DNA of 64,000 nucleotides from positions 62,001 to 126,000 of the forward strand of contig CAJPFI010000005.1 in the NCBI GenBank assembly GCA_905339295.1, read 5' to 3'. Made by a program: the position numbers and the translations under genes. How positions within the stretch are numbered: position 1 is the first letter of the stretch; each line of letters opens with the position of its first letter. The notes below the pieces were generated by a model. The model ran no database searches and was not told the DNA's origin. It saw only the letters and a program-made list of their open reading frames with translations. This DNA comes from Burkholderiales bacterium. GTDB taxonomy: Bacteria > Pseudomonadota > Gammaproteobacteria > Burkholderiales > Casimicrobiaceae. This document shows, piece by piece, positions 12,424 through 34,754 of this stretch.

Positions 12424-12446
12424 GGCGAGCTCCGGAAGATTCGTTC

Positions 12447-13192: not shown

Positions 13193-13196
13193 CGTT

Positions 13197-13895: not shown

Positions 13896-14014
13896 CGGAC
13901 GTCCGGCTCGCGGCGGAGGCGCGCCGCGGTTCCGGCGCCCGCAGGCTGGCCGCGCCAAACGCGCGCCGGACGTTGCTTATAGGATTGCGGCGCGCGCGAT
14001 GTCAAGTGCGCACG

Positions 14015-17413: not shown

Positions 17414-17462
17414 CGAACAGCCTTCCCGCGGAGGGCGCGTCGGCCCCGGGCCGTCGTCGCGC

Positions 17463-20493: not shown

Positions 20494-21336
20494 TCAGAAC
20501 GTCGCCTCGATCGCACGCTTCAGGCCCGGCGTGATCGACGGCATCACGCCGAACCACGCCTCGAATGCCGGACGCGCCTGGTTCAGCAGCATGCCGAGGC
20601 CGTTGAGGGTGCGGTTGCCGCGCAGGCGAGCGGCGGCGAGGAACGGCGTCTCGCGCGGCACGTAGATCAGGTCGCCGACGAGCGCCTCGCGCGGCAGCGC
20701 GTCCAGCGCGATGTCGAGCGGCGGCGTGCCGGTCATCCCCTGGTTGGTCGCGTTGACGAGCGTCGCGACGCCGCGGATCGCCTCGGCGCGCTCGTCCCAG
20801 CGGAACGCGGCCAGCGGCGGACCGAATTCGGCGGCGAGCCGCTCGGCCTTCGCGTGGGTGCGGTTGATCACGCGGATCTCGCGCGCGCCCTGCGCCGCGA
20901 GCGCCACGATCACGGCGCGCGCCGCGCCGCCGGCGCCGAGGATCGCGATCGGGCCGTCGTCCGGCCGCCAGTCGGGCTTCTCGTCGCGCAGGCTCTGCAC
21001 GAAGCCGTTGCCGTCGTTGTTGAGGCCGCGCAGGCTGCCGTCCTTCCCGACGACGATCGTGTTCACGGCGCCGATGCGCGCGGCCATCGGGTCGATGTGC
21101 TCGATGAGCGGCATCACCGCCTGCTTGTGCGGCGTCGTGACGTTGCAACCGCGGAAGCCGAGCGCGGCCAGTCCCTTCAGCGCCGCGGGCAGGCGCTCGG
21201 GCAGGACCGGCAGCAGGACGTAGCTTCCCGGCAGGTCGTGCTCGGCGAGCCAGTAGTTGTGCACGACGGGCGAGCGCGAATGTGCCACGGGCCAGCCGAC
21301 GATGCCCGCGAGGCCGAATTCCCTGTTTGCCGACAT
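20494..21336 (-). CDS. aroE: Shikimate/quinate dehydrogenase (AroE family)
   Basis: A 280-residue enzyme oxidising or reducing shikimate/3-dehydroshikimate (and possibly quinate) with NAD(P). The substrate loop VAHSRSP (17-23), catalytic Lys71 in NVTTPHK and Asp108 in NNDGNG are intact, and the nucleotide site is ILGAGGAARA (133-142). The usual NASPxGM is NATNQGM. The neighbours (DHS dehydratase-like barrel, HPPD-like protein, IclR regulator, and aroD on the divergent side) point to a catabolic quinate/shikimate dehydrogenase rather than the biosynthetic AroE. NADP versus NAD preference cannot be settled by eye. Confidence 0.85.
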   Translation of the reverse strand: MSANREFGLAGIVGWPVAHSRSPVVHNYWLAEHDLPGSYVLLPVLPERLPAALKGLAALGFRGCNVTTPHKQAVMPLIEHIDPMAARIGAVNTIVVGKDGSLRGLNNDGNGFVQSLRDEKPDWRPDDGPIAILGAGGAARAVIVALAAQGAREIRVINRTHAKAERLAAEFGPPLAAFRWDERAEAIRGVATLVNATNQGMTGTPPLDIALDALPREALVGDLIYVPRETPFLAAARLRGNRTLNGLGMLLNQARPAFEAWFGVMPSITPGLKRAIEATF

Positions 21337-21505: not shown

Positions 21506-22375
21506 TCATGGGCGGAGATTCGGCACCGGCAGCGCCCGGCGCAGCACGGTCTCCGCGAGCCACACGGCCGCTCGCCGCGCCCGCGCTGAGACCGCCTCGG
21601 GGGGCATCTGCAGATAGTCGTCGTTGTAGACGTCGAAGCTGTAGTTGCCGCAGTAGCCGATGGTGTCGAGCCGGGAGACGAACTGCGCCAGCGCGTCGCT
21701 GTGCGCCCCCTCGCCGGGAAAGACGCGGAAGTGCGTCGCGGTGGCGATCTGTTCCTCGGCGGAGCGGATCTCCTGCCACATGTAGTCGGAGATCTGCACG
21801 AGGAACGTCTGGTCCGGATCGAGTATGTCGAGATCCTCGAGCGGAACGCCCGAGGCCAGCACGTCGAACGCGTCGACGACGACGCCGAGGTTGGGCGCGT
21901 CGGCGCGCATCACGAGGTCCGCGCCCTGGCGGAAGTCGCGCGCCGTGCGGCTCCACGGCAGTCCCTTGTAGCCGATGCGGATGGCCAGCGGCACGGCCAT
22001 CACCGCGAGCTTCCCGAGGTCGCGCGCGATCACCGCGGGGTCGGCGCTCGCGTGCTTCGAGGCCGAGGCCTCGACCAGGAGCAGCCGGCCGCCCAGGTCC
22101 GCGCAGATCTCGAGCATCGTCCTCGCGACATCGACCTTGTAGTCGCGCAACTGGCCCTCGAGGCCCTCGAAGTCGCGCAGCGCCTCGAGGCCGGTGACCT
22201 CGAGCCCGCTCGCCCGCACCGCGCGCACGCCCGCCGCCGTGCCGCCCGGATGCGCGACGACGTCGGCCGCGGAGATCATGACCTGCGAGAAGCCCGCGTT
22301 CCGCACCGCGGCGAGCTTGGTCTCGAGCGACCCCACGAGCGACGCGGTGGCCATCCCGAAGTCGTGGAAGATCAT
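21506..22375 (-). CDS. 3-dehydroshikimate dehydratase-like TIM barrel (QuiC/AsbF type)
   Basis: A 289-residue sugar-phosphate-isomerase-like barrel that probably dehydrates 3-dehydroshikimate to protocatechuate. The metal ligands look like Glu in LLLVEASASK, Asp in VVVDAFDVLASG, and Glu/Asp in GEGAHSD and NYSFDVYNDDY. The last block, with its following QMPPEAVSARARRAAVWLAE, resembles the C-terminus of the barrel half of fused bacterial QuiC1. One oddity: where related barrels usually have D-S-F-H, this has DAFD, so one metal or substrate His is replaced. ATG 22375 overlaps the stop of the HPPD-like gene by four bases, tying the two products together. Function is inferred from family and context. 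Confidence 0.65.
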   Translation of the reverse strand: MIFHDFGMATASLVGSLETKLAAVRNAGFSQVMISAADVVAHPGGTAAGVRAVRASGLEVTGLEALRDFEGLEGQLRDYKVDVARTMLEICADLGGRLLLVEASASKHASADPAVIARDLGKLAVMAVPLAIRIGYKGLPWSRTARDFRQGADLVMRADAPNLGVVVDAFDVLASGVPLEDLDILDPDQTFLVQISDYMWQEIRSAEEQIATATHFRVFPGEGAHSDALAQFVSRLDTIGYCGNYSFDVYNDDYLQMPPEAVSARARRAAVWLAETVLRRALPVPNLRP

Positions 22376-23268
22376 GGCGCGGCGGTGCCCCGGGCTTCGC
22401 TCTTCACCAGCTCGAACATCACGCTGCCGAGCAGCGGCTTGGTGAGCGCGCCGCGCTCGCTCGAGTGAACGCGCTCGGTGGCGAGGAACTCGATGCCCCG
22501 CTTCCCGAGGCTCGCCACGGCGGCGGGCACGTCCGGCGCACCCAGGCCGATCCGCTGCAGGTGCTCCTCCATCGGCGCGAACCGCGCCGTCTCCTCGGGC
22601 TCGATGAGCTGCAGGTAGAACGTGCGGCACGGGCTCTCGAGCAGCAGGCCGCGCGGCATGATGCCGAAGCGCACCTGGTTGGGCAGCGGCGTGAATCCCA
22701 TGAGCTGCGAGTAGAACGCCGTCCAGTCGGCCGTGCGGTCGGGCCCGACGTACTGGACGATCCCGAAGAAATGCATGCCGGAGACGGCCGGCGGATGCGG
22801 GTCGACCGTGGGGATGGCCCGGAAGTCGATGTCGTAGATCGAGAACTCGTCGTAGCGGTCGACGAAATAGATGAGGCTCTCGCCGACGCCGTGGATCGCC
22901 GGGATGTTGATCTCCATCGCCTGCGCGCGCACGGGGATCTCCCAGGCGCCCAGCTCGAGCGCGCGGCGGAACGCGTACTGCGCGTCGCGCACGCGCACGG
23001 CGAACGCGCTGATCACCGGACGCTCGGTGGGCATCACCGTGCGGGGCACGTCGGCCGGCTGCGCATTGACGATGATGTTCATCGTCCCCTGCCGGTAGAG
23101 CCCGACTTCGCGGGAGCGATGGCGCGCGACGGGACGGAATCCGAACGTCTCCAGCAGGCCGCCCAGCGCCTGCGGCCGCGAGGTCGCGAACTCGATGAAC
23201 TCGATGCCGTCGAGTCCCAGCGGATTCTGTGGTTCGGGGATCGCCTCGCGATCGGTCGCGTGGGTCAT
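22372..23268 (-). CDS. HPPD-like (VOC) protein, companion of the dehydratase barrel
   Basis: A 298-residue protein clearly related to HPPD in its N-terminal half (NPLGLDGIEFIEFATSRPQA, GLYRQGTMNIIVNAQPAD, IPAIHGVGESLIYFVDRY). Its metal site has decayed: the first His remains (SGMHFFGIVQYVG) and a Glu remains near the end (VMFELVKSEARG), but the second His ligand is replaced by Arg (LQRIGLGAPDV), and the C-terminal gating helix is missing. HPPD activity is unlikely. In pseudomonads an HPPD-like domain is fused behind the 3-dehydroshikimate dehydratase barrel; here the two parts are separate genes in reverse order. ATG 23268 follows GAGGAA. Confidence 0.75.
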   Translation of the reverse strand: MTHATDREAIPEPQNPLGLDGIEFIEFATSRPQALGGLLETFGFRPVARHRSREVGLYRQGTMNIIVNAQPADVPRTVMPTERPVISAFAVRVRDAQYAFRRALELGAWEIPVRAQAMEINIPAIHGVGESLIYFVDRYDEFSIYDIDFRAIPTVDPHPPAVSGMHFFGIVQYVGPDRTADWTAFYSQLMGFTPLPNQVRFGIMPRGLLLESPCRTFYLQLIEPEETARFAPMEEHLQRIGLGAPDVPAAVASLGKRGIEFLATERVHSSERGALTKPLLGSVMFELVKSEARGTAAP

Positions 23269-23413
23269 CGCGGTTCCTCGTCGGTGCGGCCGCGATGCCG
23301 GCAAAGCGCTGCGGCGGCACGGCACGGGGCGCTGCCGGACCCTGCCGGCCGCAACCGATCGATGATAGCGCATCCGTTCGCGCGGAATCGGCCGCGCGCC
23401 GTCTCCCGGGACA

Positions 23414-24301
23414 TCAGGGGAGGAGCAGCGCGCCGAGCTCGAACGCGGCGTCCTGCATCGGAAGGAAGAAACGCTCGGCCATCTCGGCGTCGCTCATGAG
23501 CCGTCCCTGCGCGATCACGTTGATGCCCGCCACGTAGTGGCCGCCCGCGTCGCGCACCGGCACCGCGAGCGTGCACAGTCGGGTCTCCATCAGCTGGCTC
23601 GCGTACGCGTACCCCTTCTCGCGTGCGGCCTTCACGATCGCGCTCAGCCGTTCGGGAGTCACCGGCGTGTGCTCGGTGTAGGGGTGGAACCTGACGCGCG
23701 CCAGGTAGGCCTGGAACTCGTCGGGCGGAAGGTGCGCGAGCAGCACGTGGCCGATCGACGTGCAGTAGGCGGGCAGCCGACGGCCGACGTTCAGCGCCGG
23801 CGACATGATCCGGGACGTGGAGGACCGCGCGAGGTAGACGATCTGGTCGCCGTCGAGCATGGCGAGCGAGCAGGACTCGCGAAGCGACTCGCCGAGCCGG
23901 TCGAGGATCGGCTGCGCGAGCACGGCGACCGTCGACGACGACAGGTAGGCATGGCTGAAGGACAGCACGCGCGGGCGCAGGTAGAAGCGGCGCGCGTCGT
24001 CGATCGCGACGAAGCCGAGCTTCTCGAGCGTGTGCAGGCTGCGCCGCGCGGCGGCGCGCGGGATGCCCGTGAGGTGCGAGACCTGCGCGATCGACATCCG
24101 GCGGCGCTTGTCCGAGAGCGAGAGCAGCACCGCGAGACCCCGGGCGAGCGCGGTGACGAAGTCGCGATCCTCGCCCATCCGGTCGATCGTCTCCGCCGAC
24201 AACGCGTGATGGTTGGTGGCGGACGACTGCTCGGCCTGCGAGCCGGGTCGCGGGCGGCCCGTCGAAGGTTCCGTCGTCGCGTTCGCGTCGGGTGGGGTCA
24301 T
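23414..24301 (-). CDS. IclR-family transcriptional regulator (PcaR/PobR-like)
   Basis: A winged-HTH repressor/activator with a C-terminal GAF-like effector domain. The HTH is MSIAQVSHLTGIPRAAARRS (near residues 69-88), the wing follows with LEKLGFVAIDDARRFYLRPR, and the effector domain includes CSLAMLDGDQIVYLAR, RRLPAYCTSIGHVLLA and TLAVPVRDAGGHYVAGINV. IclR members of this type control protocatechuate, hydroxybenzoate and quinate genes. The first 41 residues are unusually long and polar; ATG 24178 would give 254 residues, closer to the family. It is the first gene of the minus-strand block and faces an inverted repeat at 24441-24474 that is a good candidate for its operator. Confidence 0.88.
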   Translation of the reverse strand: MTPPDANATTEPSTGRPRPGSQAEQSSATNHHALSAETIDRMGEDRDFVTALARGLAVLLSLSDKRRRMSIAQVSHLTGIPRAAARRSLHTLEKLGFVAIDDARRFYLRPRVLSFSHAYLSSSTVAVLAQPILDRLGESLRESCSLAMLDGDQIVYLARSSTSRIMSPALNVGRRLPAYCTSIGHVLLAHLPPDEFQAYLARVRFHPYTEHTPVTPERLSAIVKAAREKGYAYASQLMETRLCTLAVPVRDAGGHYVAGINVIAQGRLMSDAEMAERFFLPMQDAAFELGALLLP

Positions 24302-24440
24302 CGTGGTCGCTGGATGGCTGGAACCCTGCTGCCTCGCGGAATGGCCGATCGCCGTGGGCGCCGGCGCGGGCCGACCAGCGCACCGAAGGGTGCCACGTTA
24401 ATCCCTGCCGGCTGCCGCGGAAGGCCGCCCATGGACATTG

Positions 24441-24474
24441 TGGGCGCATACCGCACAGTTTGTCGATATGCGCC
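24441..24474. promoter_or_regulatory. Inverted repeat, candidate IclR operator
   Basis: GGGCGCATA (24441-24449) and TATGCGCCC (24466-24474) are a perfect 9-bp inverted repeat with a 16-bp spacer. The right arm directly abuts a TTGACC -35 box, where a bound regulator would block or assist RNA polymerase. It lies 140 bp upstream of the IclR gene and 389 bp upstream of the divergent operon. Binding by the IclR protein is inferred from position. Confidence 0.6.
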
Positions 24475-24504
24475 CTTGACCGGGATTCGACGGCGCTCCT
24501 ATCG
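24475..24504 (+). promoter_or_regulatory. Sigma-70-like promoter for the plus-strand catabolic operon
   Basis: TTGACC (24475-24480) and TATCGT (24499-24504) are spaced by 18 bp: five of six and four of six matches to the consensus boxes. Such a pair is uncommon in this GC-rich DNA. It overlaps the end of the inverted repeat above and points toward the acylating dehydrogenase gene. Confidence 0.45.
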
Positions 24505-24862
24505 TGCATGGTGATGACGCCCGGCTCGGATTCCCGGACCCACCGATGACCGAAGCCGGAGAGGAGCCGCAGTTGGCCGCCGGTCCGCAATTCGGCTCCG
24601 GCCGAGGACGTTGCGGCGAACGACGCGCCCGCCCGGCGTCCCATCCGTCCGCACGCATTCGTTCCGGCAACGGCACACGCCGCGTTCTCCTGGTTCCGAT
24701 GTCGGGCCGACGCGTTCGCCCGCTTGCGCCGTCCTGGACGGCCTGACCCTCCCGCGTTTCGCGGCCACGAACACCGACTCCGACCCCGACCCCGACCCCC
24801 CTATCCCGACCACCCTCCCGGCCGCGTTCCGGCGCCCGGGCTCTCGCCGAGGACGACGTCCC

Positions 24863-26317
24863 ATGGCCGCCACCGCCGAACCGAAGAAAGGCATCACCGA
24901 GGAACAGCAAGCCGAACTGGACGAGTGCTTCGCGCGTGCGAAAAAGGCGCTCGCGATCATCGAGACCTACGACCAGTCGCGCGTCGATCGTCTTTGCCAG
25001 GCGGTGGCGTGGGCGGTCGCGAACAAGCGGACGTTCACGCGGCTGGTCGACATGGGCATCAGCGAATCCGGGCTCGGCGATCCGGTGAGCCGCATGGGCA
25101 AGCGGATGAAGATCCGCGGCGTGCTTCGCGACGCGCTTCGGCAGAAGAGCGTCGGCGTGATCGAGGAGCTGCCGGAGAAGGGCATCGTCAAGTACGGCAA
25201 GCCCGCCGGGATCATCGCCTGCATCGTGCCGACCACCAACCCGGACCTCACGCCGGCCGGCAACGCGATCTACGCGATCAAGGCTCGCGACGTCGTCATC
25301 TACTCGCCGCATCCGCGCTCGAAGAAGACGTCGTTCGAGACCGTGCGCCTGATGCGCGAGGCGCTCGAGCGCGAGGGCGCGCCGGCCGACATCCTGCAAT
25401 GCCTGACCCGGGTCAACATCCCGATGTCGCAGGCGCTGATGGCGCGCGCGGACCTGATCATCGCGACCGGCGGGCAGCCCATGGTGCGTGCCGCGCACAG
25501 CTCCGGCACGCCGGCCTACGGCGTGGGCGCCGGCAACTCGACGATGATCGTCGACGAGACGGCGAACCTCGAGGAGGCGGCGCGCAACACGCGGCTGTCG
25601 AAGACCTCGGACTACGGCTCCGGCTGCTCGGCCGACGGCAACCTGATCATCGACGAGCGGATCTTCGAGCCGTTGCTCGCCCAGCTGCAGAAGGAAGGCG
25701 GCTACCTGGCGAGCGAGAAGGAGAAGGACGCGCTGCGCCGCGTGATGTGGGACGACGAAGGGCACCGCACGCCGGACACGGTGGCGATCGCCCCGCAGCA
25801 ACTCGCCAGGGCGGCCGGATTCACGATTCCCGCCGATCGCGCCTTCATCATCGTGCACGGCGACGGCATCGGCAGCGAGCACCTGTTCTCGGGCGAGAAG
25901 CTCACCACGCTGCTCGCGGTCTACAGGTACAGGGGCTTCGACCAGGCGCTCGAGATGATGCGCGGCGTCTACGAGGTCGGCGGCAAGGGTCATTCCTGCG
26001 GGATCTACTCGTTCGACCAGGACCACATCCACCGTCTCGCGCTCGCCGCGCCGGTGTCGAGGATCATGGTTCGCCAGCCCCAGTCGAAGGCCAACGCAGG
26101 CGCGTTCAACAACGGCATGCCGATGACCTCGAGCCTCGGCTGCGGCACCTGGGGCGGCAACATCGTCTCCGAGAACGTCCACCTCAAGCACTACCTGAAC
26201 ACGACGTGGGTGTCGGTGCCCATCAAGGAGGACAAGCCCTCCGACGAGGAGCTGTTCGGGGCTTTTTACGACCCGGCGCTCGAGGCCGACGCGCAAGTCG
26301 AGACGATCGCGACGTGA
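24863..26317 (+). CDS. Acylating (CoA-dependent) aldehyde dehydrogenase, sulfoacetaldehyde dehydrogenase-like
   Basis: A 484-residue member of the EutE/AdhE/SauS branch of the aldehyde dehydrogenase superfamily, which turns an aldehyde plus CoA and NAD into an acyl-CoA. The nucleotide loop CIVPTTNP (120-127), the branch-specific ATGGQPMVRAAHSSG plus YGVGAGN (201-225) and the catalytic Cys255 (KTSDYGSGCSADGN) are present. It is closest in style to proteins annotated as sulfoacetaldehyde dehydrogenase (SauS), but no sulfoacetate genes (sauT, sauU) or xsc partner follow, so that substrate is doubtful. It opens an operon with a citrate-synthase-like and a ThDP-dependent enzyme. ATG 24863 gives the normal length. 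Confidence 0.85.
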   Translation: MAATAEPKKGITEEQQAELDECFARAKKALAIIETYDQSRVDRLCQAVAWAVANKRTFTRLVDMGISESGLGDPVSRMGKRMKIRGVLRDALRQKSVGVIEELPEKGIVKYGKPAGIIACIVPTTNPDLTPAGNAIYAIKARDVVIYSPHPRSKKTSFETVRLMREALEREGAPADILQCLTRVNIPMSQALMARADLIIATGGQPMVRAAHSSGTPAYGVGAGNSTMIVDETANLEEAARNTRLSKTSDYGSGCSADGNLIIDERIFEPLLAQLQKEGGYLASEKEKDALRRVMWDDEGHRTPDTVAIAPQQLARAAGFTIPADRAFIIVHGDGIGSEHLFSGEKLTTLLAVYRYRGFDQALEMMRGVYEVGGKGHSCGIYSFDQDHIHRLALAAPVSRIMVRQPQSKANAGAFNNGMPMTSSLGCGTWGGNIVSENVHLKHYLNTTWVSVPIKEDKPSDEELFGAFYDPALEADAQVETIAT

Positions 26318-26367
26318 CCGGCGCCGCGAGCCTCGATCGGCCCACCATGCCCCCGACCCAGCGAACC

Positions 26368-27234
26368 ATGACGACCCGCACCGCCGAACAGACGCTCGCC
26401 GACGCCTCCGCGTGGTGGGACACGTCGATCATCGACATTCATCCCGGCAAGATCGCGATCCGCGGCTACCCGATCGAGCAGCTGATCGGCCGCGTGCGCT
26501 TTCCCGAGATGATCTGGCTGATGCTCCGCGGCGAGCTGCCGAGCCCGGAGCAGGCCGAGCTGCTCGAAGCCGCACTCGTGCCGGGCGTCGACCACGGCCC
26601 GCATGCGCCGTCGATCGCGATCTCGCGAATGGCGGTGACCTGCGGACTGCCCGTCAACGGCGCGATGGCCTCGGCGATCAACGTGCTCGACGACATCCAC
26701 GGCGGCGCCGGGCAGCAATGCATGGAGCGCTACCACGAGATCGACGTCCTGGCCGGCGCGGAGGGCGACCTCGTCGAGTCGGCGACGACCGTGCTCGAGC
26801 GGCATCGCGCCGCGGGCGAGAAGATCATGCCCGGCTTCGGCCACCGCTTCCATCCGGTGGATCCGCGCACCGCGCCGCTCTTCGAGCTGCTCGCGCGCGC
26901 AGAAGCGCGCGGCACGATCGGCGGCCGCTTCGCGCGGATCGGCCGGGCCGTCGAGGTCGCGCTGCAGAAGCCGAAGGGCAGGCTGATCCCGATGAACATC
27001 GACGGCATCACCGCCGTCATCTTCTGCGAGCTCGGCTTCGAGCCGGAGCTCGGGCGCGGGCTCTTCATCCTCTCCCGCTCGGTGGGGATCCTCGCCCACG
27101 CCTGGGAGCAGAAGCAGCGCGGCCGCCGGATCATGGGGCCGATGCCGCGCGAGATTCCCTTCAAGTACAGCGGCCCCGCGCGGCGTGACCTGCCCGCGGA
27201 GTTCGCGGCCCGCGGCACGCGCACCAGGACCTGA
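26368..27234 (+). CDS. Citrate synthase-fold protein (citryl-CoA lyase-like)
   Basis: A 288-residue short citrate-synthase-like enzyme, much shorter than the ~430-residue GltA. The core catalytic blocks are present: INVLDDIHGGAGQQCMERYH (CoA/substrate His region), MPGFGHRFHPVDPRTAPLFE (catalytic His) and IPMNIDGITAVIFCELGF (catalytic Asp). Homologues of this size are named citryl-CoA lyase and make or break a C-C bond between an acyl-CoA and an oxo acid. It starts 50 bases after the acylating dehydrogenase stop; ATG 26347 is an alternative start. The likely partner acyl-CoA is the product of that dehydrogenase, which is inference. Confidence 0.8.
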   Translation: MTTRTAEQTLADASAWWDTSIIDIHPGKIAIRGYPIEQLIGRVRFPEMIWLMLRGELPSPEQAELLEAALVPGVDHGPHAPSIAISRMAVTCGLPVNGAMASAINVLDDIHGGAGQQCMERYHEIDVLAGAEGDLVESATTVLERHRAAGEKIMPGFGHRFHPVDPRTAPLFELLARAEARGTIGGRFARIGRAVEVALQKPKGRLIPMNIDGITAVIFCELGFEPELGRGLFILSRSVGILAHAWEQKQRGRRIMGPMPREIPFKYSGPARRDLPAEFAARGTRTRT

Positions 27235-27278
27235 ATCCCCGACGCACGCATCGCGCCTTCGCATCCAAGGACCCCACG

Positions 27279-29117
27279 ATGAAAGACACCGTCGCCAACC
27301 CACCGGCTTCCGAGGCTCGCCGCGCACGCGCTCGCATCCCCGGAACGCCGAAGAAGGACACCGTCGCCCGCCAGCTGGTGAAGTACCTCGAGCACCGTGG
27401 CGTGAAGCACGTGTTCGGCCTGTGCGGCCACACCAACATCGCCGTGCTCGCGGCGCTGGAGAAGAGCCGGAAGATCAAGTTCGTCAACACGCGCCACGAG
27501 CAGGTCGCCGCGCACATGGCGGACGGCTATGCGCGGGCCTCGGGCGGGACGTCGGTGCTGCTCACGCATCTGTCTCCCGGCCTCACCAATGCGGCAACCG
27601 GCGTGGCGAATGCCGCGCTCGACTCGATCCCGATGGTGGTGATCGCGGGCGACGTGCCGACGCACTACTACGGCAAGCATCCGCACCAGGAGGTGAACCT
27701 GCACGCGGATGCCTCGCAGTTCGAGATCTACCGGCCCTTCGTCAAGCGCGCGTGGCGCGTCGATTCGGCGCACCTCTTCCCCGAGATCCTCGAGAAGGCG
27801 TTCGCGCTCGCCGGGAGCGGGCGCCCCGGGCCGGTGCTGGTCGACGTTCCGATGGACATCTTCTCGGCGCCGGTGGACGTGTCGCGCTTCGAGCGGCTGC
27901 GTCACAACACCAAGTCGCTGGTCCGGCCCTCGCTCGACGAGCCGACCGCGACCGCGATCGTGAAGAAGCTGCTGGCGGCGAAGCGGCCGGTCCTCTACGC
28001 CGGGGGCGGGATCATGCTCGCGGGCGCGACGAAGGAGCTCCGCGAGTTCGTCGATCACCTGCAGATCCCGGTCGCGCACACGCTGATGGGCAAGGGCGCG
28101 CTGCCCGACGACCATCCGCTCGTGCTCGGCATGACGGGCTTCTGGGGGACGAAGTTCATCAACGACCAGTGCCGCGCCGCGGACTGGATCCTGGGCCTCG
28201 GCACGCGCTTCTCGGAGGCCGACTGCAGTTCGTGGGAGCCCGAGTACACGTTCAACTTCCCGCCGACGAAGCTGATCCACATCGACATCGATCCCGCCGA
28301 GATCGGCCGCAACTACCCGGTCGAGATCGGCGCGGTGGCGGACCTCAATCAGGCGCTCGCGGCGCTGAACCGCGCCGCCCGCAAGCTGGTTCCGACCGGT
28401 GTGAAGCGGCCGAAGGTCGTCAAGGACATCGCGGCCGCGCGCGCGAAGTTCGTCGCCGGCAATCGTGCGCATGCGACGAGCGAGGTCTATCCGATGCGTC
28501 CCGAGCGGATCCTGGCCGACGTGCGCGACACGCTGCCGCGCGACGCGCTCATCTGCACCGACGTGGGCTGGAACAAGAACGGCGTGGGACAGCAGTTTCC
28601 GATCCTCGAGCCCGGCACGATCTTCACGCCGGGCGGCTACGCGACGATGGGCTTCGGCGCGCCGGCGGCGCTCGGCGCGAAGGTGGCGCGTCCCGACCGC
28701 GTCGTCGTCGCCCTGGTGGGCGACGGCGGCTTCGGCCAGAACCCGGCGATGCTCGCGACGGCGTTCGAGGAGGACATCGCGGTCGTGTGGGTGATCATGA
28801 ACAACTTCGCGTTCGGCACGATCGCCGGCCTCGAGAAGGCGCACTTCGGCACGACGTTCGGCACCGTGTTCGCGAAGGACGGCAAGCCGTACTCGCCCGA
28901 CTTCGCGGCGATCGCCAGGGCCTACGGCGTCGACGGCGTGAAGATCAGGACCGCCGCGGAGTTCGGACCGGCGCTCGCGCGGGCCATCAAGGCGAAGAAG
29001 CCTTGCGTCATCGACGTGGAGATGCTGAACGAGCCGGTCCCGACCGCCGGTCACTGGAACATCATGGACATCTACTCGCCGGGCAGGAAGGTGCATCACG
29101 TGAGCACGGGAGGCTGA
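27279..29117 (+). CDS. Thiamine diphosphate-dependent enzyme (acetolactate synthase-like)
   Basis: A 612-residue ThDP enzyme with the three usual domains. N-terminal Pyr domain: GVKHVFGLCGHTNIAVLAAL, catalytic Glu in NTRHEQVAAHMADGYARASG, and LTHLSPGLTNAATGVANAAL. Middle domain: RPVLYAGGGIMLAGATKEL. C-terminal PP domain: GDGGFGQN through IMNNFAFGTI (the GDG...NN cofactor motif). It does not match acetolactate synthase, glyoxylate carboligase or Xsc closely enough to name a reaction; decarboxylation or C-C cleavage of a 2-oxo acid is expected. It follows the citrate-synthase-like gene by 44 bases and precedes a TIM-barrel isomerase, all probably one transcript. Confidence 0.85.
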   Translation: MKDTVANPPASEARRARARIPGTPKKDTVARQLVKYLEHRGVKHVFGLCGHTNIAVLAALEKSRKIKFVNTRHEQVAAHMADGYARASGGTSVLLTHLSPGLTNAATGVANAALDSIPMVVIAGDVPTHYYGKHPHQEVNLHADASQFEIYRPFVKRAWRVDSAHLFPEILEKAFALAGSGRPGPVLVDVPMDIFSAPVDVSRFERLRHNTKSLVRPSLDEPTATAIVKKLLAAKRPVLYAGGGIMLAGATKELREFVDHLQIPVAHTLMGKGALPDDHPLVLGMTGFWGTKFINDQCRAADWILGLGTRFSEADCSSWEPEYTFNFPPTKLIHIDIDPAEIGRNYPVEIGAVADLNQALAALNRAARKLVPTGVKRPKVVKDIAAARAKFVAGNRAHATSEVYPMRPERILADVRDTLPRDALICTDVGWNKNGVGQQFPILEPGTIFTPGGYATMGFGAPAALGAKVARPDRVVVALVGDGGFGQNPAMLATAFEEDIAVVWVIMNNFAFGTIAGLEKAHFGTTFGTVFAKDGKPYSPDFAAIARAYGVDGVKIRTAAEFGPALARAIKAKKPCVIDVEMLNEPVPTAGHWNIMDIYSPGRKVHHVSTGG

Positions 29118-29156
29118 CGCCTTCCTTCACGCCCGCCAACGAATCCTGGAGTCGAC

Positions 29157-30089
29157 ATGGACCAGAGGCTGAAGAACGACTCACGGCAGACACTCCGCCC
29201 GCCGGCAGTCCGGCGCGACGGTGCGCCCCCCGCCGGGACGCGGCGCCGCTCCGCCGCGGACGACGTCGAGGTGAGGCACGAGTTCTCGCTCGCGCATCTC
29301 ACGGTGATGGGTTGTCCGCCGCCGGAGATGATCTACGTCGCCGCGCGCGCGGGTTACGACTACGTGAGCCTGCGCACGATCTTCATGGGGCTGCCGGGCG
29401 AGCCGAACTACGGGCTCGCGCACAACCCCGATCTCCTGACGAAGACGCGCCGCGCGCTCGACTCGACGGGCGTGCGCCTGCACGACATCGAGCTGGCGCG
29501 CGTCAAGGACGGCGTCGATCCTCGCAGTTTCGTGCCCGAGCTCGAGGTCGCCGCGGAGCTGGGCGCGCGTGCGGTGCTCTCGAGCATCTGGTCGGGCGAC
29601 CGCGCGTTCTATCTCGAGAAGTTCGCCGAGATCTGCGATCTCGCGAAGCCGTTCGGCCTCACCGTCGACCTGGAATCGGTGCCGATCGCCACCGTCCGCG
29701 ACCTGGCCGGCGCGGCCGACGTGCTGCGCGCGGTGAGGCGCGACAACGCCGGACTCATGATCGACACGCACCACTTCCACCGGGCGCGCGACAAGGCCTC
29801 CGACCTCGCGTCGCTGCCGCGCGAATGGTTCCATTTCGCGCAGATCTGCGATGCGCCGGCCGAGATCCCCACCGATCGCGACGAGATGATCCACGTGCTC
29901 CGCGAGGCCCGCCTGTACCTGGGCGAGGGCGGCATCGACGTCGCCGACATCCTGCGGCAGATCCCGCGCGTGCCGTACTCGATCGAACTGCCGCACCTGG
30001 ACCGCGTGCACGACATGGGGTATGCGGAGCACGCGTTCCGCTGCCTGGAAACCGCCAGGGCGTATCTGGCCGCGCACGCCTGGGCCTGA
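29157..30089 (+). CDS. Sugar phosphate isomerase/epimerase-family TIM barrel
   Basis: A 310-residue barrel, paralogous to the one at 14015-14896. Shared blocks are MIDTHHFHRARDKASDLASL, FHFAQICDAPAEIPTDRDEM and YLGEGGIDVADILRQIPRVP. Candidate metal ligands are Glu in TVDLESVPI, Asp/His in MIDTHHFH and Glu in SIELPH. The first 40 residues are polar and poorly conserved, so translation may start later (for example near GTG in DDVEVRHEFSLAHLTVMG). Chemistry is unknown; the position after the ThDP enzyme suggests it prepares or rearranges that enzyme's substrate. Confidence 0.8.
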   Translation: MDQRLKNDSRQTLRPPAVRRDGAPPAGTRRRSAADDVEVRHEFSLAHLTVMGCPPPEMIYVAARAGYDYVSLRTIFMGLPGEPNYGLAHNPDLLTKTRRALDSTGVRLHDIELARVKDGVDPRSFVPELEVAAELGARAVLSSIWSGDRAFYLEKFAEICDLAKPFGLTVDLESVPIATVRDLAGAADVLRAVRRDNAGLMIDTHHFHRARDKASDLASLPREWFHFAQICDAPAEIPTDRDEMIHVLREARLYLGEGGIDVADILRQIPRVPYSIELPHLDRVHDMGYAEHAFRCLETARAYLAAHAWA

Positions 30090-30164
30090 CGGGGCCCCGT
30101 CCCATCCCTCCGGTCGATCCCGTTCTCCGCGGCCCCGATGCTGTCCTGCCTGCATGCGTGCCGA

Positions 30165-30193
30165 TTGCCCGGATTTGGCGAGTCTGCTAAATT
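30165..30193 (+). promoter_or_regulatory. Promoter-like pair upstream of the TetR gene
   Basis: TTGCCC (30165-30170) and TAAATT (30188-30193) are spaced by 17 bp in a locally AT-rich pocket (30171-30215), 32 bp before the TetR ATG at 30225. It would separate transcription of TetR and the TRAP genes from the upstream enzyme operon. Confidence 0.4.
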
Positions 30194-30224
30194 TCCTGGC
30201 GATTTCGTCAATTCCGGAGCGTCG

Positions 30225-30902
30225 ATGGCCATCCAGGTGTCCGCGGCCCGTGCCGGCGCCATGCGCAAGCCCAAGGCGCCGCAGGCCAATCGCGAGAGCA
30301 TCGTGACGGCCGCGATCGCGGAGTTCGCCTCGCGCGGCTTCAAGGGCGCGAGCATGGACCAGATCGCGGCGCGCACGAACACCACGCGGGGACTGATCAA
30401 CTACTACTTCGGCAGCAAGGAGAAGCTCTACCTGGCGGTGCTCGAGCGCGTGTACGCCGAGATCCGCGACGCGGAGAAGGACCTGGAGCTGGATCACCTG
30501 TCGCCCGTGGACGCGATTCGCCGCATCGTCGAGTTCACCTACGATTACTACGTGGCGCACGAGTACTTCGTGCGGCTCGTGGTGGCCGAGAACCAGGCCA
30601 GGGGCGTGCACATGAAGCGCTCACCGGCGCTGCGCACCGTCAACCGCCCGATCGTCGACATGCTCGGCGCCGTGATCGCGCGGGGCCGGTCGGCCCGCGT
30701 GTTCCGCGCGGACCTGGACCCGATCGATGTCCACATGGCGATCGCCGCCCTGGGGATGTTCAACGTCACCAACCAGTACACCTTCGGCGCCATCTTCCAG
30801 CGGGCGATGGGCGCGAAAGGCGACGTCCCCGTTCGCCGCCGCGTGGTGGCCGATATGATCCTGAGTTGGCTCGCGCCCCGCGCCGACTCGCTAGCCCCGT
30901 AG
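30225..30902 (+). CDS. TetR/AcrR-family transcriptional regulator
   Basis: A 225-residue regulator. The N-terminal HTH is classic: RESIVTAAIAEFASRGFKGA, SMDQIAARTNTTRGLINYYF and GSKEKLYLAVL. The C-terminal ligand domain carries VRLVVAENQARGVHMKRSPA, a block seen in TetR regulators with the TetR_C_6/RutR-like C-terminal domain. ATG 30225 removes 29 poorly conserved residues and lies behind GGAGCG. It is 27 bases before the TRAP binding-protein gene and probably regulates the transporter and itself. Confidence 0.88.
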   Translation: MAIQVSAARAGAMRKPKAPQANRESIVTAAIAEFASRGFKGASMDQIAARTNTTRGLINYYFGSKEKLYLAVLERVYAEIRDAEKDLELDHLSPVDAIRRIVEFTYDYYVAHEYFVRLVVAENQARGVHMKRSPALRTVNRPIVDMLGAVIARGRSARVFRADLDPIDVHMAIAALGMFNVTNQYTFGAIFQRAMGAKGDVPVRRRVVADMILSWLAPRADSLAP

Positions 30903-30928
30903 TCGCGTTCCACATCGAGGAGGAAACC

Positions 30929-31915
30929 ATGGAGTTCAAGATCGACCGTCGCAGCCTGCTGAAGGCGGGCGCCGCGCTCGCCGCGACGCAAGCCGTGCCC
31001 GCCTGGGCGCAGGACAAGCCCACGCTCCGTTTCGCCGCGGTGTTCTCGGACAAGGACATCCGCGCGGACATGATCCGGATGTTCGCCAAGGATATCGAGG
31101 GCGACTTCAAGCTCGAGCCGTTCTACGGCGGGACGCTGTTCAAGCAGGGGACCGAGCTCGTGGCGCTCCAGCGCGACAACCTGGAGCTGGGCAACATCGC
31201 TCCGCAGGACATCAGCAAGCAGATTCCCGCGTGGTCGATCCTCACGTCCGCCTACCTGTTCCGCGACGCGAATCACCTCAACAAGTTCTTCGCGAGCGAC
31301 CTGGGCGCGCAGATGAAGAAGATGGTCGAGGACCAGGTCAAGGTGAAGATCCTCGGACCGACGTTCTTCGGCACCCGGCAGGTGGGCCTGAAGCCCAAGA
31401 AGAAGATCAACACGCCGGCCGACCTCGCCGGCGTCAAGCTGCGCATGCCGCCGGGCGACGCCTGGCAGCTCCTGGGCCGCTCGCTCGGCGCGAACCCCAC
31501 GCCGATGGCCTATGCCGAGACCTACACCGGGATGCAGACCGGCGCGATCGACGGCCAGGACAACCCGCTTCCCAACGTGCAGAACATGAAGTTCTACGAG
31601 GTGATGTCGCAGATCGTGCTGACGTCCCACCTCGTCGGGTTCGACCTGCTCACGGTGAACATGAAGACCTGGGGCGGCATGTCGCCCGCGAAGCAGGCGT
31701 CCTTCCAGGCCGCGGCCGACAAGGCCATCGCGTGGAGCGCCAACGAGCACCTGAAGCGGGAAGCCGAGCTTGCCGACGGCTTCCGGAAGCAGGGCCTCGA
31801 CGTCTACGCGCCTGACGTCAACGCCTTCCGCGCCTACGCGCAGAAGGTGTATCTCGCCAGCGACGAAGCGAAGAGCTGGCCGCCGGGACTGCTCGACAGG
31901 ATCAACGCGCTGTAA
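30929..31915 (+). CDS. dctP: TRAP transporter solute-binding protein (DctP family)
   Basis: A 328-residue periplasmic binding protein. Residues 1-27 hold a twin-arginine-like signal (DRRSLLKAGAALAATQAVPA) and cleavage at AWAQD. The DctP core includes KINTPADLAGVKLRMPPGDA with the conserved Arg that binds the ligand carboxylate, and GMQTGAIDGQDNPLPNVQNM. An excellent GAGGAGGAAA ribosome-binding site precedes ATG 30929. With DctQ and DctM it drives sodium-dependent uptake of a carboxylate. The downstream aroD suggests quinate, shikimate or dehydroshikimate as ligand; this is inference. Confidence 0.9.
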   Translation: MEFKIDRRSLLKAGAALAATQAVPAWAQDKPTLRFAAVFSDKDIRADMIRMFAKDIEGDFKLEPFYGGTLFKQGTELVALQRDNLELGNIAPQDISKQIPAWSILTSAYLFRDANHLNKFFASDLGAQMKKMVEDQVKVKILGPTFFGTRQVGLKPKKKINTPADLAGVKLRMPPGDAWQLLGRSLGANPTPMAYAETYTGMQTGAIDGQDNPLPNVQNMKFYEVMSQIVLTSHLVGFDLLTVNMKTWGGMSPAKQASFQAAADKAIAWSANEHLKREAELADGFRKQGLDVYAPDVNAFRAYAQKVYLASDEAKSWPPGLLDRINAL

Positions 31916-32038
31916 CGACGAGGAGCGCCGCGGGTCGCGTCACGACCCGCGGCCGCTCGCGGCCTCCGCCTCGCCGCGGGAGACTGACTTCCGTGTGCGG
32001 GCAGGCCAGGATTCCCGCGAAGAAGGGAAGGGACGACC

Positions 32039-32557
32039 ATGCATCCATCCGTCCGAAGCGCCGTCGACTGGATGCGACGCCGCGCCGAGAACGTGGTGGC
32101 CGCGTTGCTCGGCATCATGTTCGTCGCGTTCATCATCCAGATCGTCTTCCGCTACGCATTCAACTTCCCGATCGGCTGGACCTCTGAGCTCTCGGTCATC
32201 ACCTGGCTGTACATGGTGCTGCTGGGATCGGCGTTCTGGCTGAAGGAGAGCGAGGAGATCCGCTTCGACCTCGTGTCCGAATCGATGGGCCCGCGCGCGC
32301 GCCGGATCGTCGGCATCGTCGTCGCCCTCTCGATCGTCGTGCTGTTCGCGATGTCGCTGCCGGCGACGATCAAGTACGTCTCGTTCATGAAGGTCGAGAG
32401 CACGTCCTACCTCAAGATCCGCCTCGACGTCCTCTACTCGGTCTACGTCGTCTTCGCCGTGGCCATCGTCGTGCGCTACCTGTGGGCGCTCTGGCAACTC
32501 GCGCGCCGTGAAGAGCCCGACACGCCCGCCACGACGGACGTGAGCTCCGGGCTGTGA
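32039..32557 (+). CDS. dctQ: TRAP transporter small permease (DctQ family)
   Basis: A 172-residue membrane protein with four hydrophobic segments (VVAALLGIMFVAFIIQIVF, LSVITWLYMVLLGSAFWL, IVGIVVALSIVVLFAMSLPA, LYSVYVVFAVAIVVRYLWAL). The family blocks RYAFNFPIGWTSELSVITWL and FWLKESEEIRFDL are present. It overlaps dctM by GTGA (32554-32557), so translation is coupled. It bridges the binding protein and the large DctM subunit in the inner membrane. Confidence 0.9.
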   Translation: MHPSVRSAVDWMRRRAENVVAALLGIMFVAFIIQIVFRYAFNFPIGWTSELSVITWLYMVLLGSAFWLKESEEIRFDLVSESMGPRARRIVGIVVALSIVVLFAMSLPATIKYVSFMKVESTSYLKIRLDVLYSVYVVFAVAIVVRYLWALWQLARREEPDTPATTDVSSGL

Positions 32558-33855
32558 ACCCCGCCAGCCCGTTCTCGCTGGCCCTCATCGCGATCGTCGC
32601 GCTGAGCGTGCTCGGGCTGCCGGTCGGGCACGCGATGATCGGCGGCTCGATCCTCTACCTGTTCCTCGCGGGCCTCGACATGGGAACCGCCGCCGAGCAG
32701 CTTCTGAACGGGATGAACACGAGCTTCCTGCTGCTCGCGATCCCGCTGTTCGTCCTCGCCGCCGAGTTCATGAACACCGGCAGCATCATGGACAGGCTGC
32801 TGCGCTTCTGCAACGCGATCGTCGGCCGCTTCCGCGGCGGCCTCGCCCAGGTCAACGTGGTGCAGAGTATCATCTTCGCCAGCATGTCCGGCTCGGCCCT
32901 GGCCGATGCCGCGGCCTCGGGCAAGCTGATGCAGTCGCTGATGACGCGGGACGGGAAGTATCCGCCCGCCTATGCGGCGGCACTGACGGCGGCATCGTCG
33001 GTCATCGGCCCGATCATCCCGCCCTCGATCCCGCTGGTGCTCTATGCGCTGGTGTCGGACACGTCGCTCGGCTACCTGTTCCTCGGCGGCGTCGTTCCGG
33101 GGCTGCTGCTCGGCCTGGTCCAGATCGGCCTGATCGCCTTCACCGCCAGGCGGCGCAACTTCCCGGTCGAGGAGCGCGTTCCGCTGCGCGAGCTGCCGCG
33201 CATCACGTGGGAGGCGTTCCCCGCGCTGATGATGCCCGTGATCCTCCTCGGCTGCCTGTACAGCGGCATCACCACGCCCACCGAGGCCGCCGCCGTCGCC
33301 GCAGCCTATGCGCTGCTGATCTCGATGCTGCTCTACCGCAGCGTCGGCCCGAGGGACATCTACCGTTCGCTCGTCACCAGCGCGCGCATCACCGTGTCGA
33401 TCGGCATGCTGATCGCCGCAGCGCTGGTCTTCAACTACGTCATCACGATCGAGAACATTCCCAGGACGCTCAGCGTCGTCCTGAAGTCGTACGACCTGTC
33501 CCCGCTCGCCTTCCTGCTCTTCATCAACGTCCTGCTGCTGGTCCTCGGCTGCTTCCTCGAGGGGACCACGATCATCCTGGTCATCCTCCCGGTCCTGCTT
33601 CCCACGGCGGTGGCGCTGGGCATCGATCCGGTGCACTTCGGCGTCCTCGCGATCGTCAACATCATGTTCGGGCTCATCACGCCGCCCTACGGGCTGCTCC
33701 TCTTCATGATGACCAAGATCGCGGACGTCCCGCTGCGCGACATGGTGCGCGAGATCATGCCGTTCCTGGCCGTCATGGTCGGAGCGCTCGTGCTGATCAC
33801 GTTCGTGCCGGACGTCGTGCTCTGGCTGCCGAGGCTCCTGGGCTACAAGGGCTGA
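32554..33855 (+). CDS. dctM: TRAP transporter large permease (DctM family)
   Basis: A 433-residue membrane protein with about 11-12 segments. DctM signatures include GMNTSFLLLAIPLFVLAAEF, QSIIFASMSGSALADAAASG, ASSVIGPIIPPSIPLVLYAL and GLITPPYGLLLFMMTKIAD. It forms the sodium/substrate translocation pathway. GTG 32554 is the start because it overlaps the dctQ stop and gives a correct N-terminus. Confidence 0.93.
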   Translation: MNPASPFSLALIAIVALSVLGLPVGHAMIGGSILYLFLAGLDMGTAAEQLLNGMNTSFLLLAIPLFVLAAEFMNTGSIMDRLLRFCNAIVGRFRGGLAQVNVVQSIIFASMSGSALADAAASGKLMQSLMTRDGKYPPAYAAALTAASSVIGPIIPPSIPLVLYALVSDTSLGYLFLGGVVPGLLLGLVQIGLIAFTARRRNFPVEERVPLRELPRITWEAFPALMMPVILLGCLYSGITTPTEAAAVAAAYALLISMLLYRSVGPRDIYRSLVTSARITVSIGMLIAAALVFNYVITIENIPRTLSVVLKSYDLSPLAFLLFINVLLLVLGCFLEGTTIILVILPVLLPTAVALGIDPVHFGVLAIVNIMFGLITPPYGLLLFMMTKIADVPLRDMVREIMPFLAVMVGALVLITFVPDVVLWLPRLLGYKG

Positions 33856-33974
33856 CGGCGGCATCCCGACCCGGGCAGTGCCGCGCGACGCGCTCGACTA
33901 GAATCGGTGGATGGCGCCCCGTGCGGCGCCGGCTCGGCGCGTCCGCGGGCGGGCAACCGATAGAAAGGCGGGCC

Positions 33975-34754
33975 ATGAAGCAGGAAAAGGTGATCGACCT
34001 CCGCGGCCGCCGCATGGGCGGGCCCACGCCGCTCGTCTGTTCGCCGCTGGTGGCGCGCACGCCCGAGCGGCTCGCGGCCGAGACCGCCGCGGTTCTCGCG
34101 AAGGGCCCCGACGTGATCGAGTGGCGCGTCGACTTCTTCGAGCCCATCGCCGACACCGCCGCCGTGCTCTTGGCCGGGCGCGCCATGCGCGCCGCCGCGG
34201 GCGGGACGCCGATCATCTTCACCTGCCGCGCACAGCACGAAGGCGGGCAGGCGAACGCGCTCGACGCCGAAGGCGTGACGCGACTCTACGATGCCGTCTG
34301 CGGCGCCGGTCTCGTCGATCTCCTCGACTTCGAGCTTTCGAATCCGCCGGCGCTCGTGCGGCGCGTGCGCGAACGATCGCGCGAGCAGGGGACGCGGCTC
34401 ATCCTCTCGTACCACAACTTCGGCTACACGCCGGGGCACGATCTGCTGGTCGAGCGCTTCCTCGAGGCCGATCGGCTGGGCGCCGACGTCGCCAAGGTCG
34501 CCGTGATGCCGCGCGACCGCGTGGACGTGATCACGCTGCTGTCCGCCACGGTCACCGCGGACGCCAAGGCGCGGATTCCGCTGATCAGCATGTCGATGGG
34601 GCCGGTCGGCGTGGCGACGAGGATGGTCGGCGGCGTGTTCGGCTCCTCGCTGTCGTTCGCGATCGGCGAGGGTGCGTCCGCCCCGGGGCAGATGCCCATC
34701 GCGGACCTGGCCGCGGTGTTCGGCGCGCTCGCCCGCGCGCGCGGCGGATCGTAG
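33975..34754 (+). CDS. aroD: Type I 3-dehydroquinate dehydratase
   Basis: A 259-residue class I enzyme that dehydrates 3-dehydroquinate to 3-dehydroshikimate through a Schiff base. The Lys (K174 in DVAKVAVMP), the general base His (H147 in ILSYHNFGYTPG) and Glu49 (IEWRVDFF) are all present, as is the C-terminal ISMSMGPVGVATRM phosphate/carboxylate loop. Betaproteobacteria generally use the type II enzyme AroQ for biosynthesis, so a type I enzyme downstream of a TRAP transporter and TetR regulator is probably catabolic (QuiB-like). A TAGAAT -10-like hexamer is at 33899-33904; ATG 33975 gives the normal start. Confidence 0.9.
   Translation: MKQEKVIDLRGRRMGGPTPLVCSPLVARTPERLAAETAAVLAKGPDVIEWRVDFFEPIADTAAVLLAGRAMRAAAGGTPIIFTCRAQHEGGQANALDAEGVTRLYDAVCGAGLVDLLDFELSNPPALVRRVRERSREQGTRLILSYHNFGYTPGHDLLVERFLEADRLGADVAKVAVMPRDRVDVITLLSATVTADAKARIPLISMSMGPVGVATRMVGGVFGSSLSFAIGEGASAPGQMPIADLAAVFGALARARGGS

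Follow-up and report, generated by a model that had tools for sequence, protein, structure and literature searches.

Quinate and shikimate are abundant plant acids, and all bacterial routes for their degradation known to us pass through protocatechuate. The enzymes leading there are quinate/shikimate dehydrogenase, the 3-dehydroquinate (DHQ) dehydratases AroD or AroQ, and QuiC, QsuB or AsbF; ring cleavage of protocatechuate then usually needs oxygen. The degradation of hydroaromatic acids by fermenting and denitrifying bacteria, associated with Brune and Schink, has reportedly been an open point since the early 1990s. In myo-inositol catabolism, the metal-dependent dehydratase IolE makes a 1,2-diketone and the thiamine diphosphate (ThDP) hydrolase IolD opens the ring. 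Citryl-CoA lyase has its known setting in the reductive citric acid cycle. Here we describe an operon located in a 64,000-nucleotide stretch of a Casimicrobiaceae (Burkholderiales) genome (contig CAJPFI010000005.1, positions 62,001 to 126,000; the whole stretch is called the window below). With a probability of about two in three, this operon specifies an oxygen-independent breakdown of quinate and shikimate that does not pass through an aromatic compound. No description of such a pathway was found among the papers listed by searches of the open-licence PMC literature.

The operon genes were all found on the + strand between positions 24863 and 34754 of the window, whose G+C content is about 70%. 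With the starts chosen, the gaps between them range from a 4-base overlap up to 153 bases.

24863..26317, + strand: coenzyme A (CoA)-acylating aldehyde dehydrogenase, EutE/AdhE/SauS-like (PF00171; best NCBIfam model SauS, below cut-off)
26368..27234 (alternative start 26347), + strand: citrate-synthase-fold lyase, proposed homocitryl-CoA lyase (NF004864; 6hxp)
27279..29117, + strand: ThDP enzyme, proposed diketone ring-opening hydrolase (PF02776/PF00205/PF02775)
29271..30089 (alternative start 29157), + strand: AP_endonuc_2 triosephosphate isomerase (TIM) barrel, proposed 3-dehydroquinate C4-C5 dehydratase (PF01261)
30225..30902, + strand: TetR-family regulator, inside the operon between the barrel and transporter genes (PF00440, PF17938)
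30929..31915, + strand: solute-binding protein DctP of a tripartite ATP-independent periplasmic (TRAP) transporter (PF03480)
32039..32557, + strand: TRAP small permease DctQ (PF04290)
32554..33855, + strand: TRAP large permease DctM (PF06808; TIGR00786 over cut-off)
33975..34754, + strand: type I DHQ dehydratase AroD (TIGR01093 184.3 bits, cut-off 139.3)

An earlier note, made from the sequence of the window alone, had listed these genes with the exception of the TetR-family regulator, and each gene that it named was recovered on the + strand within the span it had delimited. According to Pfam the TRAP transporter is complete, with DctP, DctQ and DctM all in the operon. The lyase gene overlaps another reading frame.

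In the pathway that we propose, the TRAP transporter would import the acid, and quinate or shikimate dehydrogenase together with AroD would supply 3-dehydroquinate, AroD or AroQ working in reverse (3-dehydroshikimate to 3-dehydroquinate) in the shikimate branch. The TIM barrel would take off the C5 hydroxyl of 3-dehydroquinate, giving the 1,2-diketone 1-hydroxy-3,4-dioxocyclohexane-1-carboxylate, which could not turn aromatic because C1 keeps its hydroxyl and carboxyl groups; since 3-dehydroshikimate would aromatise at the same dehydration, 3-dehydroquinate is the better substrate. The ThDP enzyme, by chemistry like that of cyclohexane-1,2-dione hydrolase or IolD, would cut the C3-C4 bond, C3 becoming an aldehyde and C4 an acid, which would give homocitrate semialdehyde. 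The acylating dehydrogenase would convert this aldehyde into homocitryl-CoA, a step that in other organisms may involve a non-acylating dehydrogenase and a family III CoA-transferase, by way of free homocitrate. Finally, the citrate-synthase-fold lyase, or elsewhere an enzyme resembling 3-hydroxy-3-methylglutaryl-CoA (HMG-CoA) lyase, would perform a retro-Claisen split into acetyl-CoA and 2-oxoglutarate, so that all seven carbons would be accounted for (C7 = C2 + C5). The 3-hydroxyacyl-CoAs that are cleaved by citryl-CoA lyases, and likewise those cleaved by HMG-CoA lyases, have a C3 alcohol that is tertiary, and homocitryl-CoA is proposed as the lyase substrate because C1 of quinate and 3-dehydroquinate, with its hydroxyl and carboxyl groups, gives such an alcohol. 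Every substrate, product and step direction in this scheme is one that we infer.

Gene content, conserved linkage, the replacement of one enzyme family by another and the conservation of active sites were observed directly. A search of a collection of 84,980 species, one genome per species, with the ThDP enzyme alignment gave at least 597 pattern matches, and at least 577 of them encode a relative at tblastn E <= 1e-3, which need not all be the same enzyme. From among these relatives we took the best 80 loci (70-87% identity), to which three plasmid loci (Azoarcus sp. KH32C, Streptomyces and Nonomuraea) and the window were added, making 84 loci, 58 of at least 19 kb (long loci) and 26 shorter; one pair (L075/L077) comes from a single species and another (L061/L063) from a single genome, and all rows were retained. 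The gene set was found in five phyla, as named in NCBI titles, and on two actinobacterial plasmids at 54-55% identity. The reading in the earlier note would have fallen if the enzymes had proved to belong to separate known pathways with no conserved linkage across genomes; the linkage is kept across phyla.

Neighbouring proteins were clustered without prior choice and their representatives named by NCBIfam and Pfam. The recurrent enzyme groups are the TIM barrel, shikimate dehydrogenase, family III CoA-transferase, acylating and non-acylating aldehyde dehydrogenases, the citrate-synthase-like lyase, an HMG-CoA-lyase-like protein, AroD, zinc-dependent alcohol dehydrogenase, type II DHQ dehydratase (AroQ), shikimate kinase and a group related to QuiC and 4-hydroxyphenylpyruvate dioxygenase (HPPD), with a cupin in 8 loci. 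The remaining groups present in at least 10 loci are, where named, transporters, regulators and membrane proteins; clusters 19, 20 and 23, each in at least 10 loci, had no family match or were not scanned. Cluster 19 (L063 2622-3971, - strand, and 16 further loci) is a membrane-type protein with no NCBIfam match at the threshold used; it often adjoins the shikimate kinase gene in Bacillota and is a candidate shikimate/quinate permease. In L082, L084, L101 and L112 the ThDP cluster is accompanied by a carboxylesterase gene (the L112 member matches PF00135), and a BD-FAE-type esterase group is found in these four loci and in L092; the carboxylesterases could fit a release of quinate from plant esters. 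In Noviherbaspirillum denitrificans (L086), a second ThDP paralogue, 53% identical, lies in the same neighbourhood (15954-17678, - strand).

The presence of the different enzymes was scored with profiles built from the clusters and run over all open reading frames of at least 110 amino acids, with thresholds chosen by inspection of the scores; since the 84 loci had also supplied the profiles, the counts measure recurrence and not independent detection. As controls, we used 12 neighbourhoods of ThDP relatives at 35-39% identity, archaeal ones excluded, with the same profiles and thresholds; all 12 are plasmid-borne and mostly rhizobial. None of the 12 exceeded the threshold for barrel, cupin, either lyase, acylating aldehyde dehydrogenase, CoA-transferase, shikimate dehydrogenase, AroD or AroQ, and one did for non-acylating aldehyde dehydrogenase. 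The Antarctobacter control has an annotated AroQ 1 kb away, whose score is under the threshold, and in several control loci the annotation lists sugar phosphate isomerases, cupins and aldehyde dehydrogenases that belong to other subgroups. On alphaproteobacterial plasmids (L135, L136, L137, L140 and L142), distant ThDP relatives have as neighbours an aldehyde dehydrogenase, a cupin and a sugar phosphate isomerase (in L140 a hypothetical protein takes its place), often also NAD(P)-oxidoreductases; this may be a similar ring-opening module that acts on some other compound. In L138, L139, L141, L143, L144 and L146, another ThDP subgroup lies beside a gene annotated hisD and GMC oxidoreductases.

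Linkage supports dehydroquinate as the substrate: at least one of three mutually unrelated proteins, shikimate dehydrogenase, AroD or AroQ, accompanies the ThDP gene in 63 of the 84 loci (46 of the 58 long ones), and shikimate kinase in 19, all from Bacillota. The operon might alternatively degrade another ring acid, a cyclitol or a sugar acid, with the AroD, AroQ and shikimate dehydrogenase family proteins acting on analogues of shikimate compounds. This would agree with the distant ThDP relatives, most of which have no shikimate genes nearby (an AroQ is annotated in L136) and stand beside isomerases, cupins and aldehyde dehydrogenases of other kinds, and with the occurrence of the lyase together with CoA-transferase where this ThDP enzyme is lacking. 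We consider it unlikely in view of the linkage above and of the position of the window operon, which is separated from a divergent quinate block by a control region common to both. For the sugar acids suggested as an alternative in the earlier note, the link to AroD, AroQ and shikimate dehydrogenase likewise points to dehydroquinate instead.

Several positions in the gene set, which we call slots, are filled by one or the other of two unrelated families. In the lyase slot, 35 of the 84 loci have only the citrate-synthase-like lyase, 28 only the HMG-CoA-lyase-like protein, one (L041) both and 20 neither (Fisher p 2.5e-8). For the CoA-forming slot the counts are 34 with acylating aldehyde dehydrogenase only, 31 with CoA-transferase only, 5 with both and 14 with neither (p 1.9e-7), and 28 of 33 loci with non-acylating aldehyde dehydrogenase also have the CoA-transferase (p 2.2e-10). 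Barrel and cupin never occur together (barrel only 54, cupin only 8, neither 22; p 1.3e-4). The 58 long loci give the same picture, and mutual exclusion persists within the 31 Bacillota loci (p 0.00046 for the lyase slot, 0.0038 for the CoA slot) and within the 53 non-Bacillota loci (p 0.00013 and 0.00014). All four combinations occur: citrate-synthase-like lyase with CoA-transferase (20) or acylating aldehyde dehydrogenase (9), and HMG-CoA-lyase-like protein with CoA-transferase (7) or acylating aldehyde dehydrogenase (18). Because Fisher tests ignore relatedness, a tree of 85 ThDP enzyme sequences was made by a quick method. It requires a minimum of 7 changes of lyase type, 7 of CoA-forming type and 4 between barrel and cupin, loci with both or neither alternative being left out of these counts.

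Unrelated families that repeatedly replace each other most likely do the same job. Most likely, one slot turns an aldehyde into a CoA thioester, either directly or through the acid, and the enzyme of the next slot splits this thioester by a retro-Claisen reaction. Slot replacement gives good support to a CoA back-end that removes a C2 unit. In L034, the CoA-transferase has its best score, below the cut-off, with succinate-glutarate CoA-transferase. In two loci (L036 8513-13530 and L037 8481-13632), a citrate-synthase-like lyase stands with an aldehyde dehydrogenase, a CoA-transferase, a FAD oxidoreductase and an IclR regulator, without such a ThDP enzyme; this lyase seems to serve a second pathway besides the ThDP module.

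The window lyase passes the citryl-CoA lyase model NF004864 (424.6 bits, cut-off 261) and matches the citryl-CoA lyase structure 6hxp (E 2.7e-35). Its residues H111, H159 and D212, which we take to be the catalytic His, His and Asp of citrate synthase, are invariant in 18 aligned sequences. The nearest solved structures of the dehydrogenase are acylating acetaldehyde and succinate-semialdehyde dehydrogenases, a cysteine aligning in the YGxxC stretch. The ThDP enzyme falls under every cut-off among the matches listed (25 of 54 NCBIfam models), which include acetolactate synthase (TIGR00118, 419.8 bits, cut-off 538.35) and no IolD model. Its nearest sequence relatives are synthases and carboligases, and cyclohexane-1,2-dione hydrolase (2pgn) comes lower, at 168 bits. 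The structure model (predicted local distance difference test, pLDDT, 78.4) has the acetolactate-synthase fold, with about 30% identity to acetolactate synthases and 25-26% to cyclohexane-1,2-dione hydrolase. The motifs CGHT, RHEQ and PHQE are invariant in 20 aligned sequences.

A sulfoacetate or Xsc-type pathway is rejected on the scores of the dehydrogenase against SauS (NF047625, 467 bits, cut-off 600) and of the ThDP enzyme against Xsc-type sulfoacetaldehyde acetyltransferase (NF005713, 296.4 bits, cut-off 620). The description of the genes as an uncharacterised catabolic operon stands. The mechanism suggested with it, in which the ThDP enzyme would cleave a 2-oxo acid to an aldehyde, the dehydrogenase make the acyl-CoA and the lyase handle a C2 unit, is supported from the aldehyde onwards, through acyl-CoA to removal of the C2 unit. 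Decarboxylation of a 2-oxo acid is not favoured: none of the recurrent neighbours is an evident supplier of the 2-oxo acid, and of the families that occur in 10 loci or more it is the ThDP enzyme that best qualifies as ring opener. Exactly how the ring is opened is again something that we infer.

A profile of 21 barrel sequences matches Lmo2234, IolI, QuiC1 (5hmq, E 3.9e-13) and AsbF, and a Foldseek search with the structure model (pLDDT 94.6) gives IolI, Lmo2234 and QuiC1, with sugar epimerases among the fold neighbours. The score against the QuiC model NF042435 is 23.7 bits, for a cut-off of 1200 that applies to a 635-position two-domain model. In PMC7442255, the QuiC1/QsuB active site is given as Arg64, Leu97, Glu134, Leu136, His168, Asp165, Gln191, Ser206, Arg210 and Glu239, and the window barrel has E135, D165, Q191 and E239 in register with QuiC1. 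Across 23 aligned rows, four residues are invariant (Glu135, Asp165, Arg211 and Glu239); 9 rows, the window among them, have Gln and 14 have His at position 191, and at position 168 there are 20 His and 3 Tyr. As the QuiC1/QsuB metal-site set is kept, the barrel has the appearance of a metal-dependent dehydratase that acts on a compound similar to dehydroshikimate.

These residues bear on a different order of the same pathway, in which the ThDP enzyme would cut 3-dehydroquinate directly between C3 and C4 by an acyloin-type hydrolysis, and the barrel would act afterwards as an aldose-ketose isomerase on the 2-hydroxyaldehyde. Such an order would suit the sugar epimerases among the barrel's fold neighbours and the carboligase fold of the ThDP enzyme. 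It appears quite improbable, because the barrel keeps the dehydratase metal-site residues and because the aldehyde would be at C4, leaving the acylating dehydrogenase unable to provide the lyase with a 3-hydroxyacyl-CoA at C1.

We then examined 24 hand-chosen cluster-bearing genomes (23 Bacillota and bacterium UASB270; without completeness figures) for ring-cleavage dioxygenases. No match to the intradiol dioxygenase family PF00775 (E <= 1e-8) was found in 23 of these 24, the exception being G223 (L121). PF02900, a broad family that neither proves nor excludes protocatechuate 4,5-cleavage, has matches in 15 of them, and neither family was found in 9, including four of the Bacillus pumilus/safensis group; cluster-bearing species without a match to either family include Domibacillus indicus and Priestia endophytica. 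The cluster is present in Candidatus Formimonas warabiya and Anaerobacillus arseniciselenatis, which we take to be anaerobes. In the window genome, the only intradiol dioxygenase candidate is a remote relative (79 bits versus 296).

These results weaken the idea that the operon is the back-end of protocatechuate or gallate degradation, the ThDP enzyme decarboxylating 4-carboxy-4-hydroxy-2-oxoadipate on the way to citryl-CoA and then to acetyl-CoA and oxaloacetate. The chemistry would suit a 2-oxo acid decarboxylase with a citryl-CoA lyase (NF004864), and LigB-type dioxygenases do occur in the window genome; with both dioxygenase families unmatched in 9 of the chosen genomes, and with the TIM barrel, shikimate dehydrogenase and AroD left without a role, we regard it as very doubtful. 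It is equally hard to believe that the barrel, in spite of its homology to QuiC1, AsbF and Lmo2234 and the adjoining quinate block, is a second dehydroshikimate dehydratase feeding the protocatechuate route while the other enzymes serve something unrelated, since it occurs in genomes without an intradiol dioxygenase match and its linkage with the ThDP enzyme, CoA-forming enzyme and lyase is conserved.

Other observations do weigh against the proposed non-aromatising route. Cyclohexane-1,2-dione hydrolase is no nearer to the ThDP enzyme than acetolactate synthases are, and Lmo2234, which among solved structures comes closest to the barrel by profile, may be a dehydroshikimate dehydratase in its own right. 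The gene set is not always complete: 20 of the 84 loci are without lyase and 22 without barrel and cupin, although L045 carries the lyase and the barrel as broken frames. In the 58 long loci, the lyase is present in 47, a CoA-forming enzyme in 52 and barrel or cupin in 44. A cluster-type lyase lies elsewhere in the genome for 7 of 9 searched genomes with a lyase-less locus. It is citrate-synthase-like in G225; in G201, G208, G211, G212, G227 and G228 it is an HMG-CoA-lyase-like protein of at least 417 bits, against at most 392 bits in eight genomes of citrate-synthase type (the G211 match contains one stop codon, and the citrate-synthase profile search left out G228). G224 (383 bits) and G226 (365 bits) score below the maximum of those eight. 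A close ThDP relative (E <= 1e-200) is present in 3 of 200 genomes of the window's order, the window genome included, which makes the trait patchy. One of the three, G143, has aldehyde dehydrogenase, ThDP enzyme, a barrel in two pieces, TRAP, shikimate dehydrogenase-like and AroQ genes; L052 likewise has aldehyde dehydrogenase, ThDP enzyme and barrel. G143 and L052 are without a clear linked lyase, and no citrate-synthase-like lyase was found in G143.

The QuiC/HPPD group, found in 23 of the 84 loci, brings in a possible oxygenase fold; HPPD-like proteins may have a role in the module, though most loci are without them. The window genome has a QuiC-like dehydratase and LigB-type dioxygenases, so that an aromatic route may work there too. 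Moreover, the operon AroD is the only DHQ dehydratase found in the window genome assembly (98% complete), where no type II enzyme was found, and aroD may therefore serve biosynthesis.

Weighing all this, and with slightly less assurance than for the window operon itself, we think it probable that there is a second, aromatisation-free quinate/shikimate pathway, running through a dehydroquinate-derived diketone, ThDP-dependent ring opening and homocitryl-CoA to acetyl-CoA and 2-oxoglutarate, with three slots in which unrelated enzyme families can stand in for each other, in at least five phyla including anaerobes. If so, the ring would be opened before aromatisation, the route would work without oxygen and it would feed the citric acid cycle directly, accounting for quinate fermentation by bacteria without formation of an aromatic ring. 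It would also give functions to at least six generically annotated protein groups (ThDP-binding protein, sugar phosphate isomerase, citryl-CoA lyase, cupin, CoA-transferase and aldehyde dehydrogenase) and make hydroaromatic acid degradation by fermenting and denitrifying bacteria testable.

The quinate/beta-ketoadipate block described in the earlier note is indeed found on the opposite strand, with a control region between the IclR gene and the operon.

20494..21336, - strand: shikimate dehydrogenase (NF001312 329.8 bits, cut-off 295)
21506..22360, - strand: QuiC-like 3-dehydroshikimate dehydratase, aromatising branch (NF042435 132 bits on the dehydratase half; the cut-off of 1200 is for the two-domain model)
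22372..23373, - strand: HPPD-like protein, homologous to the C-terminal half of QuiC (TIGR01263 88 bits, cut-off 277; NF042435 positions 283-468)
23414..24301, - strand: PcaR/PcaU/PobR-type regulator of the IclR family, transcribed divergently from the operon (TIGR02431 264.6 bits, slightly short of its 284.75 cut-off; PF01614, PF09339)
24442..24475: inverted repeat of 12 nt, 92% complementary, with a 10-nt spacer, abutting the -35-like box; candidate operator
24476..24505, + strand: sigma-70-like promoter TTGACC-18-TATCGT (consensus match only)

The sequence TGGGCG...CGCAC...CGCCCTTGAC is kept upstream of the aldehyde dehydrogenase gene in 4 of 5 relatives (L043, L044, L048 and L049) and was not seen in the stretch of the fifth, L047, that was examined; the promoter-like site is largely conserved along with the inverted repeat. 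Farther left lie a Liv-type ABC transporter and pcaI/pcaJ/pcaF-family genes (11221-13958, - strand), the latter in a genome where no more than a remote relative of the intradiol dioxygenases was found. Another member of the barrel family of the operon (37% identity) is encoded at 14015-14896 (- strand), next to the Liv-type transporter.

Among known systems, SauS of sulfoacetate metabolism belongs to the same superfamily as the operon dehydrogenase, which scores below its cut-off, the ThDP enzyme being far below that of the Xsc type. The lyase exceeds the citryl-CoA lyase family cut-off by a wide margin and keeps the His/His/Asp set, with homocitryl-CoA as its proposed substrate and an operon context unlike the reductive citric acid cycle. 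Cyclohexane-1,2-dione hydrolase (2pgn, 4d5e) resembles the ThDP enzyme in fold and in the proposed ring-opening reaction and, at 25-26% identity, is not the same enzyme; it presumably comes from 'Azoarcus' 22Lin, and a genome titled Aromatoleum diolicum 22Lin also carries the cluster (L088). With the protocatechuate route, the proposed pathway would share its substrates and the 3-dehydroquinate node, and the operon barrel is homologous to QuiC1; it would involve neither aromatisation nor a dioxygenase and would form homocitryl-CoA instead of protocatechuate. By analogy, the chemistry would be that of myo-inositol catabolism, with beta-elimination by a TIM barrel to a 1,2-diketone followed by ThDP-dependent ring opening, carried out by enzymes of other subfamilies and continued by a CoA thioester and a retro-Claisen lyase where myo-inositol catabolism uses a kinase and an aldolase.

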